Assembly (NCBI GenBank): GCA_021202635.1
Contig: JAJQCQ010000019.1
Span: 1-46,483 of the forward strand
Source of the DNA: Lachnospiraceae bacterium
Lineage (GTDB): Bacteria > Bacillota > Clostridia > Lachnospirales > Lachnospiraceae
Reading direction: 5' to 3'
DNA: 46,483 bases
Both the position numbers and the translations under genes were made by a program. Shown piece after piece: positions 19,755 through 23,140 of the stretch. Every line of letters starts with the position of its first letter. Positions within the stretch are counted from its first letter, which is position 1. The notes beneath the pieces are model-generated. The model was not told the DNA's origin. It searched no databases and saw only the letters and a list, made by a program, of their open reading frames with translations.

Positions 19755-19783
19755 TTGACAAATAGATAATTAATGAATATGAT
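19755..19783 (+). promoter_or_regulatory. Consensus sigma-A promoter of the nitrogenase-like operon
   Basis: TTGACA (19755-19760), exactly 17 bases, TATGAT (19778-19783). Transcription would begin near 19790, about 57 bases before the first gene. An A/T-rich imperfect palindrome (TTAAT...ATTAA, about 19770-19786) overlaps the -10 region and could bind a repressor. Confidence 0.78.
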
Positions 19784-19846
19784 TAACTCATGTGAATTAA
19801 ATAATTGAAATTGGCATTCTATAATCATCATATACGGAGGAAATGA

Positions 19847-20266
19847 ATGAACAGAGAAAAGAATAGAAACATGGACGAGGGGCCTATGCCTCACCGCGGA
19901 GGAAAAGGAGATCATTTGCTTGAGGAACTGGCGGAAAAGAGGATGCTGCTTTTTGTGGGTTCTGTGAATTGCCTGCGTCATAAGCCATATCGGAGAATCG
20001 GGGCGCTGATGCGTGAGGGGCGGGCAGCACTGCTTTGCCCGTCGATGAGCGATTTTTCCAGCGGGCGCTATCTGAACCAGATCGTTGAGGCGCTCGCAGA
20101 GCTTTCTAGGGAACATGGGGAGAAGCAGTTTGTCATTGCCTGTGGCTGTCAGTGGGTCATTCTCTCAACAGACAGTGAGCTGCTGAAGGAACGGGTAAAA
20201 CGGGAACATGACATTGACCTTACCGTATTTGAGGACGCACATCTGGAATTTGGAGATCATGAGTAG
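19847..20266 (+). CDS. Small cysteine protein of nitrogenase-like operon
   Basis: The start at 19847 has GGAGG six bases upstream; an overlapping ATG at 19843 is too close. The product is 139 residues, soluble. Cysteines are at 42 (SVNCLRHKP), 64 (ALLCPSMSD), 99 and 101 (IACGCQWV). Segment 60-101 loosely recalls the Rossmann strand and Cys loops of nitrogenase component 1. No family is securely recognised. As the first gene of an operon with NifD/E-like and NifH-like proteins, it may supply Fe-S ligands missing from the NifD/E-like partner (inference). The N-terminal 25 residues are charged and probably disordered. Confidence 0.6.
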   Translation: MNREKNRNMDEGPMPHRGGKGDHLLEELAEKRMLLFVGSVNCLRHKPYRRIGALMREGRAALLCPSMSDFSSGRYLNQIVEALAELSREHGEKQFVIACGCQWVILSTDSELLKERVKREHDIDLTVFEDAHLEFGDHE

Positions 20267-20359
20267 CAGTGTGTTTTGGGAAAACGAGACGCAGATTTGC
20301 GGCTGGTTTGGTTTAACAGGCGGATTCGATGAAACAAAAGAAAAGGAGACATTGATTAT

Positions 20360-21706
20360 ATGAAGCGATTGTGGAAAGTGTTGCCGCCCTGCCTTTCGGA
20401 TCTGATGGGATTTGAGGCAGTCGTGAATGAGACAGAAGGACTGGGACTGATTGATGATTCGAGCACCTATAAGCCGTTTTTGTTTGGGCGCGGCGGGCAT
20501 GGATGGCCGGGAATGGAGGGCTGCCATGGACATGGAGGCGGTCGGGGCGGCTTTGGAAGGCTTATGCCCGGAATGCGTGTTATTAATTCGGATATACGCA
20601 ATGAGGATATTATTACCGGCACAGAAAAGAAAGTGATGCAGGCATTTGATAAGGGCGTGAAGCAGCTTTCCCCGAATTTCGCCCTGCTTGCTTATGGTCC
20701 ATCCGCGTCTATGATTGGATCAGATCTGGAATACGCGGCAGAGAAGATTACGGAAGGTTCTGCCCTCGTGCAGCGAAGCTCCAAGGAAGAACTGGCCAGC
20801 CTCCGAACGGAGAGAGGGAGCGCTTCTGTGCAGAGCGGCCTTCCCGCGGCGGCGGTGAAGATTGACGGGGAAAAGGATTATCTGTATGGGATCAGCTGCA
20901 CGCTGGAAGCAATGGGACGTCTTTTGCTGACGCCTCGTGAGACAATCCCCGGCTCCCTGAATATTCTGGGCGCCAATACGATTGACTGGGCAAAGGAATC
21001 GTTTGCCGACCTGGAGGCGCTTTTGAAGCAGGAAGGATTTCAGATTCTCTCCCGCTGGGGCTGGAAGGAGACGACTGAAAATCTGAAGCTGGCGTCTGCC
21101 GCGGTGTTGAACCTGGTAGTAAACGAATCCGGTTTGCGCCTGGCCAGGTATATGGAGAGGGAATATGGGATCCCTTATCTGGCAGGAGCGCCGTTCGGTG
21201 CGGACTTTACGGAGACATTGAAGATCAGGCTGAAAGAAGCTGTTCCAGTGACTGACACGAAACGTCCGGGAGAAAAACAGAGGAAAGAGTGCCGTTTGTC
21301 TGAGTCTGCCGCGAGCCCGAATGAAGATCAGAGAAAAGAAAATGATGTGGATACAGAGCCGGAGATTCTGATTGTTGGGGAACAGTTTACGGCTAACGCG
21401 ATCCGCCGGGAATTACTTCGCCGCGGAAAAACAAAGATCCGGGTGCTCAGTTTTTATGATATGGACAGGGCATATATGGAGACTGGTGATCAGAAGCTGA
21501 TCGGAGAGGATGACTTTACCAGGCAGGCCAATGCAGAGTCTGTCCGTATCATATGTGCCGATGGCGACTTGCGGCCGCTGGTGAAAAAAGAAGTGCGTTG
21601 GGTGCAGCTCCCCAATACAGGCAGTATGTTTCCGGTAGAACCAATGGAAGCGTTTAACATGACGGGCGGTGCACTGGATGCCTGGCTGGACCGGGAAGGA
21701 CTGTAA
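20360..21706 (+). CDS. Nitrogenase component 1-type oxidoreductase, NifD/NifE-like
   Basis: A 448-residue member of the Oxidored_nitro family (PF00148). Landmarks: LPPCLSDLMGF (Cys11, the first P-cluster-type position), NEDIITGTEKKVMQAFDKGV, YGPSASMIGSDLEYAAE (where true nitrogenases carry a ligand Cys before the MIGDD motif; here Ala), GSLNILGANTIDW, LNLVVNESGLRLARYMEREYGIPYL, and the C-terminal domain ILIVGEQFTANAIRRELL. Cysteines are only 11, 55, 180, 311 and 399. An unusual Gly/His-rich segment (43-71, with GWPGMEGCHGHGGGRGG) replaces the region between the first two cluster ligands. A charged linker spans 297-335. It probably acts as the reductase partner of the NifH-like protein on an unknown substrate; the substrate is unlikely to be N2 since no cofactor genes are present. 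Confidence 0.78.
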   Translation: MKRLWKVLPPCLSDLMGFEAVVNETEGLGLIDDSSTYKPFLFGRGGHGWPGMEGCHGHGGGRGGFGRLMPGMRVINSDIRNEDIITGTEKKVMQAFDKGVKQLSPNFALLAYGPSASMIGSDLEYAAEKITEGSALVQRSSKEELASLRTERGSASVQSGLPAAAVKIDGEKDYLYGISCTLEAMGRLLLTPRETIPGSLNILGANTIDWAKESFADLEALLKQEGFQILSRWGWKETTENLKLASAAVLNLVVNESGLRLARYMEREYGIPYLAGAPFGADFTETLKIRLKEAVPVTDTKRPGEKQRKECRLSESAASPNEDQRKENDVDTEPEILIVGEQFTANAIRRELLRRGKTKIRVLSFYDMDRAYMETGDQKLIGEDDFTRQANAESVRIICADGDLRPLVKKEVRWVQLPNTGSMFPVEPMEAFNMTGGALDAWLDREGL

Positions 21707-21785
21707 ACTTCTGGCATCATTTAAGAAGTCGGAAGGCCTGTAAGCCTCTGGCACCGTTCGAAAAGTGGAAAGGGTGAATGAATCT

Positions 21786-22607
21786 ATGAGACAGATTGCT
21801 ATTTATGGAAAGGGCGGCATTGGTAAATCTACAACGTCACAGAATCTGGCGGCCGCTCTGGCGGAAAATAAGAAAAAACTGATGATTGTGGGCTGCGATC
21901 CCAAAGCGGATTCCACGAGGCTGATTCTGGGCGGTCATGCGCGCCGGACCGTGCTGGACACGATGCGGGAAAAGGACGAAGATGAAGTGGAGCTGGGAGA
22001 TTTCCTCTACACAGGTTTTCAGGGGATTAAGGCTGTGGAATCCGGCGGCCCGGAGCCGGGGGTCGGCTGTGCAGGGCGCGGGATTGTCACAGCCATCAAC
22101 CTGCTGGAGAACCTGGGCGCCTATACATCGGATCTGGATTATGTCCTGTATGATGTTCTGGGCGATGTTGTATGTGGCGGTTTTGCTATGCCGATCCGGG
22201 AAGGAAAGGCGAAAGAAATCTATATTGTCTGTTCGGGTGAGATGATGAGCCTGTATGCGGCGAACAATATATGCAAAGGGATACGCCGCTACGCAGAAAC
22301 CGGCAAGACAAAGCTTGGCGGACTCATCTGTAATTCCCGTATGGTAGATCAGGAGAGAGAACTTGTGGCCGCATTCGCGGAGAAAATTAATACGCAGATG
22401 ATTTATTTTATCCCCCGCGATAATCTGGTGCAGCATGCAGAGCTTCAGCGCAAAACGGTTATTGAATATGCGCCGGAGTCCGCGCAGGCGGACGAATACC
22501 GTTCTCTTGCGCGGGTGATTGAGGAAAATACCGGATTTTCCGTGCCGACACCGATTTCGAACGATGAACTGGAAGAGCTTCTGATGAAGTATGTTCCGGT
22601 CAAATGA
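21786..22607 (+). CDS. NifH-like nitrogenase iron-protein homologue
   Basis: The start is taken at 21786 ([20 protein letters not shown]), behind a GGAAAGGGTGA site, rather than GTG 21765. Of 273 residues, the P-loop GKGGIGKST is at 8-16. Switch I is GCDPKADST (36-44). The bridging [4Fe-4S] ligands are Cys95 (GVGCAGRG) and Cys130 ([10 protein letters not shown]). Length and all nucleotide and cluster residues match functional NifH, BchL and CfbC proteins. It should be a homodimer that passes ATP-gated electrons to the NifD/E-like partner. It lacks the linked nifD/K/B/E/N set, which places it among the nitrogenase-like (not nitrogen-fixing) groups. Confidence 0.9.
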
Positions 22608-22720
22608 CCGAAATTGCTCGAAGAGTGTCAGGGGAGCGACCAGAGAGTAACGGAAAAGTGACCAAAAGCGACCGGGGAATGACCGGAAAGCGTTATGACG
22701 AATGGCAGAAGGAGAGACAG

Positions 22721-23140
22721 ATGGACAGAGAGCAGCTGATTGAAGAAGTTACGAACGCAATCTGGAAAATGCGCGTGAGCCAGAAAAGAAAGCGTTCTGG
22801 AGAATCCGATTCCGGGCGGGGGATGGTACTCAATTATCTGTACGAGCACCAGGGGCAGGCTTTCCCTGGGGATCTGCGCGATTACATGCATGTCACAACC
22901 CCGCGCGTAACGGCGGTTCTCAATGAACTGGAGGAAGACCGGCTCATTGTCAGAGAGACGGCGGCGTGCGACCGCAGACGTGTGAGCGTGAAGCTGACTG
23001 ACCTGGGATGGGAGCGTGTGGGGCAGCGGCGGAAGGAAAAACGGGAGGAGGCCGCCCGGCTCATAGACCGTCTGGGAACAGAAGACGCAGAGGCTCTGCT
23101 GCGGATCTGCCGTGTGGTAGAAAAACTCGGGGATAATTGA
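22721..23140 (+). CDS. MarR-family regulator of the nitrogenase-like operon
   Basis: The start at 22721 (MDREQLIEEVTNAIW) follows AAGGAGAGACAG; the frame is open back to 22604 but that part is Arg/Lys-rich and overlaps the NifH-like stop. The product is 139 residues. Its winged helix includes VLNYLYEHQGQAFPGDLRDY, HVTTPRVTAVLNELEEDRLI and the wing RETAACDRRRVSVKLT, which is the MarR pattern. Cys at the wing could respond to redox stress. It lies last in the operon, so it is likely to control it, or the adjacent MATE operon whose operator begins just downstream. Confidence 0.8.
   Translation: MDREQLIEEVTNAIWKMRVSQKRKRSGESDSGRGMVLNYLYEHQGQAFPGDLRDYMHVTTPRVTAVLNELEEDRLIVRETAACDRRRVSVKLTDLGWERVGQRRKEKREEAARLIDRLGTEDAEALLRICRVVEKLGDN

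Follow-up and report, generated by a model that had tools for sequence, protein, structure and literature searches.

The locus described here raises the question of what a nitrogenase-like operon can do when its catalytic subunit is accompanied by a protein of only 139 residues. It lies in a Lachnospiraceae bacterium (GenBank assembly GCA_021202635.1; 4.0 Mb, 106 contigs, 97.46% complete) on contig JAJQCQ010000019.1, and the window that we analysed, 46,483 nucleotides of the forward strand, corresponds to this one contig. An earlier sequence-only reading had placed there ORFs (open reading frames) for a four-cysteine protein of 139 residues, a NifD/E-like protein, a NifH-like ATPase and a MarR regulator, and all four were recovered at the positions it gave (Table 1). 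It had read them as a compact nitrogenase-like reductase whose reaction is unknown, and our results support this reading. On comparisons of sequence and predicted structure, the operon probably codes for an ATP-driven, Fe4S4-only two-component reductase, derived from the nitrogenase-like (NFL) system NflHDK, in which subunit K is reduced to its domain I. In a nitrogenase-like enzyme of some gut Clostridia, one of the two large catalytic subunits appears to have shrunk to the domain that would hold the Fe-S cluster.

The sequence-only reading regarded the 139-residue protein as a separate, novel small cysteine protein, but the evidence points to domain I of NflK: as judged from profile and fold, only the first Rossmann domain of a nitrogenase-like K subunit is left, and it bears the putative interface-cluster cysteines. 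Its profile matched NflK domain I with a probability of 97% (E 9e-12), the best of 50 shuffles reaching 8.9%, and a hidden Markov model of the small protein run in HMMER matched 13 full-length K-type frames. In a second-look structure alignment (VIA) of its predicted model the 12 best rows were nitrogenase-family subunits, with residues 21-140 of ChlN as the best match. These three results led us to reject assignment of the protein to an unknown family, and the statement that the window lacks nifK is wrong in substance, since the small protein would be a reduced K-type subunit. No description of a K subunit consisting of domain I alone was found in the available parts of the open-access full-text literature.

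The catalytic subunit, D, aligned with NflD over its full length (E 6e-62), and its predicted model (predicted local distance difference test score 74.7, predicted template modelling score 0.77) gave nitrogenase-family chains in all 50 PDB matches listed by Foldseek, the best being a DPOR chain. It was the only protein returned by a PF00148 search of the host genome. NifH has a Walker A motif, GKGGIGKST, at residue 15 and cluster-type cysteines at 102 and 137, its start is likely the ATG at 21786, and it was the single full-length match in a genome-wide NifH search (417 bits), the next three scoring 22-31 bits over about 40 residues.

Table 1. Features of the operon and its surroundings in the window
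Feature	Position	Strand	Basis
3' remnant of siderophore-type substrate-binding-protein gene	19555..19665	+	sequence match
Promoter TTGACA-N17-TATGAT	19755..19783	+	11/12 consensus matches
Palindrome TTAACTCATGTGAATTAA, proposed MarR operator	19783..19800	+	overlaps end of -10 box
Small subunit, 139 aa; putative NflK-type subunit reduced to domain I	19847..20266	+	ORF, profile, structure alignment
NifD/NflD-like catalytic subunit D, 448 aa	20360..21706	+	PF00148, 68 bits (cut-off 28.6)
NifH-type ATPase	21765..22607	+	NCBIfam TIGR01287, 450 bits (cut-off 394)
MarR-family regulator	22604..23140	+	family-model match

Phylogenetic analysis gave the two larger subunits different affinities. In a quick tree run without bootstrap, cassette D and NflD formed 27 of the 58 rows on one side of a branch with an SH-aLRT (approximate likelihood ratio test) support of 100, and a clade of the cassette with nifD/E was rejected (approximately unbiased test, p-AU 9.6e-4). 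Cassette NifH formed a clade of its own (100/97), and a single clade of cassette and Nfl NifH was rejected (p-AU 1.1e-5). Because D sits with NflD, yet the joint NifH clade was rejected, the operon is, as far as these trees can be trusted, a chimera with D from the NflD side and a NifH placed with true NifH. The NifH trees left out 4 of the 89 collected rows in the first run and 30 of the 89 in the second (near-duplicates, long branches and unclear types); also absent were nifH of L044/L072, which a filter on length removed, and of L066/L079, where the gene is frame-broken. Near-duplicate loci were omitted from the first D tree (80 rows), and 22 of those 80 rows from the second. Nesting in a clade of known function, an outcome that the sequence-only reading had named as telling against it, was not seen for either D or NifH with respect to nif; the answer extends to that group, the only one labelled with a function in trees that held no named Mar, Isr, Cfb or Bch rows.

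These results also bear on the possibility that the small protein and D form a NifEN-like scaffold or chaperone that holds a metal cluster or ion, with NifH as an insertase. Tails of the small protein and inserts of D are rich in Gly, His and Arg, residues whose stretches could bind such a metal; the D insert is variable and spans residues about 38-72, and 44 of the 72 residues of the small-protein tail in L083 (from a chosen start) are of these types. The best NCBIfam score of D was also obtained with the NifE model, yet it lies far below the cut-off (41.8 vs 505.1 bits). Set against these features are the grouping of D with NflD, with a nifD/E clade rejected, and the absence from the host genome of both a second PF00148 protein to receive a cofactor and a NifB match over the cut-off (TIGR01290, best match 29.9 bits vs 343.65). 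We consider a scaffold unlikely.

The arrangement of cysteines is in line with a reduced NflK. The small protein has cysteines at 42, 64, 99 and 101, of which C42, followed by R44 and H45 in a C42-x-R-H motif, and C101 are retained from domain I and present in 13/13 rows of the cassette; C64 and C99 vary. NflK rows contain two conserved cysteines in 10/10 cases and NflD rows one in 10/10. In D, C11 occupies a P-cluster-type position and is present in 10 rows (the window, L071-L073, L076, L078-L081 and L083); by alignment it lies 26 residues before the NflD cysteine, which we take to be the spacing between C62 and C88 of NifD. Position 11 is Leu or Pro in L084, L085 and L086, which carry Cys 34 and a cysteine in a GPC motif near 116, and D of L083 has both C11 and the GPC cysteine; the D frames of L082, L087 and L088 begin beyond residue 11. 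This pattern suggests one Fe4S4 site whose D-side ligand moved during evolution, and the conservation of cysteines agrees with the split ligand supply foreseen by the earlier reading, with cluster ligands that the small protein and D probably both contribute. The ligand patterns of IsrDK and DPOR used for comparison are those of PMC11423573.

The operon product would be an oxygen-sensitive, ATP-driven two-component reductase of the NFL kind in a pared-down form, acting in the manner of DPOR or CfbCD. Domain I of K would pack on domain I of D, and both would hold one interface Fe4S4 cluster through C42 and C101 of the small protein and, in this clade, C11 of D; the fourth ligand is not fixed, and it could be C64 or C99 of the small protein here and, in relatives, a cysteine elsewhere in D. 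NifH dimers would dock on this pair, hydrolyse ATP and send electrons through the cluster to a substrate in the D cleft. The usual K-K core of the tetramer rests on K domains II and III, whose loss should abolish it, and the unit is therefore probably a D-K' heterodimer or a D-D-based dimer. No FeMo-co-type (iron-molybdenum cofactor) cluster is expected, and FeMo-co chemistry is unlikely in a genome with a single PF00148 protein and without a NifB match above the cut-off. The D profile (A8) alignment had no cysteine opposite the LVQC stretch of NifD, whose cysteine is presumably C275. C275 is reported to ligate FeMo-co (PMC11423573), and known relatives are described as D-K heterotetramers, homodimeric CfbD being the exception (PMC12552129, PMC11423573).

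Compared with known systems, the cassette has both a NifH-type ATPase with Walker A motif and two cluster cysteines and a PF00148 D subunit, as NFL enzymes do. The partner of D is K domain I only, instead of a second full-length K-type subunit or, as in CfbD, none, and the cassette thus falls outside the usual two-large-subunit definition of NFL enzymes. It resembles NflHDK in that D is sister to NflD and the small protein, as NflK domain I, keeps the same two K-side cysteines, but it differs by the lack of K domains II and III, a NifH of another lineage, the Gly/His/Arg-rich segments and D-side cysteines at other positions. Like CfbCD it combines a NifH-type ATPase with a single full-sized D-type subunit, although NifH scored 391.7 bits with the CfbC model without reaching its cut-off of 402, and the CfbD model gave D 17.5 bits against a cut-off of 268.4; Cfb is described as having no NifK homologue at all (PMC11423573). 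DPOR (BchL-BchN-BchB or ChlLNB) is an Fe4S4-only two-component reductase, as the cassette enzyme may be, but has full-length N and B subunits, and the DPOR/COR models remained below their cut-offs (BchL and BchX 216.9 vs 345.15 and 204.6 vs 331.2 bits, BchB 37.2 vs 490.35 bits). Likeness to Mo-nitrogenase (NifHDK/NifEN) is found in NifH, which is 69-71% identical to its counterparts in the nif operons L059 and L063, in contrast to a genome that contains neither NifB over the cut-off nor a second PF00148 protein.

MarHDK and IsrHDK deserve separate attention, for the operon could code for a C-S bond-cleaving, sulfur-scavenging reductase of this kind with a reduced K. These are ATP-driven NFL reductases, as the cassette enzyme would be, but have a radical SAM partner and a full-length K. 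Isr has been reported in bacteria of the intestine, and IsrD resembles NflD here in having a single P-cluster-type cysteine (PMC11423573). No radical SAM gene was found with Pfam among the nine ORFs around the cassette (17495-28080), the rest of the genome having been searched with the NifB model only. In the PDB, cassette NifH is also far nearer to nitrogenase NifH (402 bits) and to 6nzj (392) than to 9fmg_D of the methylthio-alkane reductase complex (293), with the DPOR iron proteins at 164 bits or less; 6nzj, listed in the PDB as a nitrogenase iron protein, is one that we take to be of CfbC type. A role in C-S bond cleavage seems quite improbable to us.

The distribution of the cassette shows that its three core genes are kept together. 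Among 98 genomes taken as relatives (the host included), D matches at E <= 0.001 were found in 26. Within the genus, 11 of its 47 genomes have close orthologues, and in a twelfth (G004, L045) the orthologue is distant and truncated at a contig end. Small, D, nifH and marR occur in the same order in 10/10 genus relatives with close orthologues, while the flanks vary. A scan of a collection of 84,980 species with two D-profile peptide patterns, which misses relatives that do not have both, gave 89 stretches and 22 confirmed loci. The order small-D-nifH is seen in 19 of these 22, the other three (L082, L087, L088) beginning inside D at a contig end, so that the fixed order claimed by the sequence-only reading holds and the small protein is conserved next to its NifD/E and NifH homologues. 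MarR, which had been counted as part of the set, does not belong to its fixed core: in 11/19 loci nifH is followed by a marR178 homologue and in one (L086) by another MarR-family gene, and in 7/19 no MarR gene was seen after nifH (L085 has a run of N there). Of the named records, the nearest are uncultured Lachnospiraceae and Clostridiales MAGs (metagenome-assembled genomes), and the spread includes a record under the name Lawsonibacter, a genus of Oscillospiraceae. The small protein is present in 2/397 sampled genomes of the family, and plasmids gave a distant D match in 2/72,556 records (23 and 28% identity).

A patchy spread (11/47 genomes of the genus) might also be expected of a decaying NFL system that has lost most of K and any function, and nifH is frame-broken in L044 and L066/L079, possibly through assembly error. 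The median ratios of nonsynonymous to synonymous substitutions (dN/dS) within the genus argue for constraint instead, with 0.10 for small (55 pairs), 0.19 for D (45 pairs) and 0.05 for NifH (15 pairs), and the promoter and the C-terminus are conserved. Moreover, the set of small, D and NifH is kept in divergent loci where identity of the small protein to the window copy drops to 31-35%. Decay is thus extremely improbable. For marR the median dN/dS was 0.26 (6 pairs, L037 being left out for its stops). The first 39 codons of the marR ORF hold two stops in L037, and for this reason the true start of marR is probably at 22721. We also considered that nifH of L044 (71% identity) might be a replaced gene, an idea rejected given the frame break in that MAG.

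Transcription of the operon seems to start from the consensus promoter that the sequence-only reading had recognised, at the position it gave. As a bare pattern this promoter is within chance for the region (3 found vs 3.5 expected), although the TTGACA box and the site that follows are conserved in 11/11 genus loci despite differences in the sequence further upstream. The palindrome TTAACTCATGTGAATTAA occurs in exact form once in the window, and with 0-1 mismatch upstream of small in 11/11 genus loci; when up to 3 mismatches were allowed, the pattern, which derives from this very site, was met by chance in 41/100 shuffles. In L076, which has a marR178 homologue, TTAACTAACATAAGTTAA stands in the corresponding place. 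The 8 loci without such a homologue (L078-L081, L083-L086) show no fewer than 4 mismatches to a consensus that was derived later from the positive loci. The palindrome over the promoter accompanies the marR gene and is its putative operator, from which MarR would repress the operon until a ligand appears. Just upstream of small and before the ribosome site, L078-L081, which have no MarR, share a conserved hairpin, GAGCCAGGAGAAATCCTGGCTC, a candidate terminator or attenuator.

The neighbourhood offers some clues to the substrate. In 7/10 genus relatives (L035-L041) genes for a FecCD-type permease and an ATPase lie upstream of small, and in L035 and L036 a substrate-binding-protein gene directly adjoins it; this importer binding protein is closest in the PDB to siderophore-binding proteins (8b7x 180 bits, YclQ 166, CeuE 157). 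FecB-FecCD-ATPase genes are found in 5/12 NflHDK loci, and FecCD plus ATPase in 9/20 loci of other NFL families, several of them near-duplicates. A marR144 gene and a MATE exporter gene come next in 6/11 genus loci, and L076 has a MATE gene (69%) after marR. Because of the importer in 7/10 relatives, the FecCD importers beside related systems, the Gly/His/Arg-rich segments and the MATE genes, all of them weak pointers, a metal chelate or tetrapyrrole is our leading, still tentative, guess for the substrate, and an aromatic or xenobiotic compound comes next. A more specific version would make the enzyme half a nitrogenase, a single D-K' unit lacking the K-K core, in which ATP-boosted electrons reduce an imported metal chelate, for instance a ferric catecholate siderophore of a potential beyond the reach of ordinary reductases, and release its iron. 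This has an outside chance of being right; if it is, the operon would code for an iron-acquisition enzyme of the nitrogenase family.

Some observations were made on the genes mentioned above. In the host, an intact copy of the binding-protein gene, 98% identical to that of L036, is on contig G000:C104 together with its operon (L188 8995-12841); beside the cassette in the window the iron-uptake operon seems to have been moved or deleted, only the 3' remnant being left. FecCD permease and ATPase genes stand at or inside the nitrogenase-like operons L055, L056, L057, L060-L062, L139, L144 and L154, in L055 between nifH and the K gene, an arrangement of which no mention was found in the passages of the literature consulted. 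OppA-like transporter genes after nifH (L084, L085, L087, L088; 89-100% alike among themselves), on which NikA models scored far below cut-off, were not used as a clue to function, nor were esterase genes near some loci, because the window holds its own such set about 10 kb downstream.

Several results weigh against a reduced NflK acting in an iron-acquiring or other NFL reductase. With Foldseek alone, the model of the small protein gave 0/1360 matches at E <= 0.001 and a list mostly of KaiC; the VIA rows are new alignments of matches that Foldseek itself had supplied, and no more than 0.5 Z separates them from the first unrelated row. The two cysteines of NflK and the one of NflD leave the fourth ligand without a candidate even in relatives. 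The position of cassette NifH beside the NifH of nif and some B-H-D-K operons had weak support (90/55). In the stretches examined, no FecCD permease was seen near the divergent cassette loci (L076, L078-L088) or L042-L044, and the importer of the window genome is on another contig, which makes the importer link circumstantial.

The structural results would also suit an independent Fe-S or adaptor protein, whose likeness to NflK would be convergence of a common Rossmann-type fold. Pfam had no family for the 139-residue protein, NCBIfam gave one weak match (13.5 bits), and phmmer against the PDB returned nothing but three chains of designed helical repeats (best E 8.9e-10), a likeness that we attributed to helix composition and disregarded. 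The small-protein profile (A7) found nothing significant in the PDB, with ChlN fourth (E 0.52, residues 35-135). Convergence would have to account for the profile match with its shuffle control, the HMMER matches to full-length K-type frames, the Cys-x-Arg and Cys motifs in register and the position beside D, and we regard it as very unlikely.

A K subunit of domain I alone would show the least that an ATP-driven electron relay through an interface cluster requires, and the D-side cysteines, which differ in position between members, would provide a natural series for the evolution of cluster ligands. The cassette also concerns surveys of nitrogen fixation genes, in which the "pseudo-nifH" problem has been described for Clostridia and guts (PMC8597730). 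Its NifH passes the nitrogenase NifH model in a genome without NifB over the cut-off or a NifDK pair and would count as such a case, and the cassette may give such genes one functional context.

A second domain-I-only K, unrelated to the first, was seen in G718 (L135 7790-10831), where marR is followed by nifH, a 212-aa K-type protein with three P-cluster-type cysteines and a D gene of another NFL family (grouping with the D55/D61 rows). The site TTAGCACTACTAA occurs in L135 twice before marR and once before nifH. At E <= 1e-20 this half-K was found in 1/58 genomes of its family, and an order-wide search gave matches in at least 78/295 genomes, most of the frames listed exceeding 380 aa, with shorter ones of 151, 284, 287, 298 and 352 aa. 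It may be a one-off and not a second conserved system, and the genes around it look mobile-element-like by eye. Viral contigs yielded no relative of it or of the small protein. Other unusual NFL loci include L150 8961-12363 (G785), with NifH fused to a full PF00148 domain (724 aa) and followed by a separate 419-aa D-like protein, and genome G1040, with seven NifH-type matches and tandem pairs in L145 and L146.

Elsewhere in the window, two proteins with long Gly-Gly-Pro repeats (34188-35576 and 42149-44809), the first with an esterase Ig-like N-terminal match, flank genes resembling an oligopeptide-type ABC transporter. Closer to the cassette, an 884-aa protein (25429-28083) has an NAD(P)H-FAD oxidoreductase part and sub-cut-off rubredoxin-like and ODP beta-lactamase-like matches, and 3' of it a flavoprotein and then a ferredoxin-like ORF can be recognised by eye.

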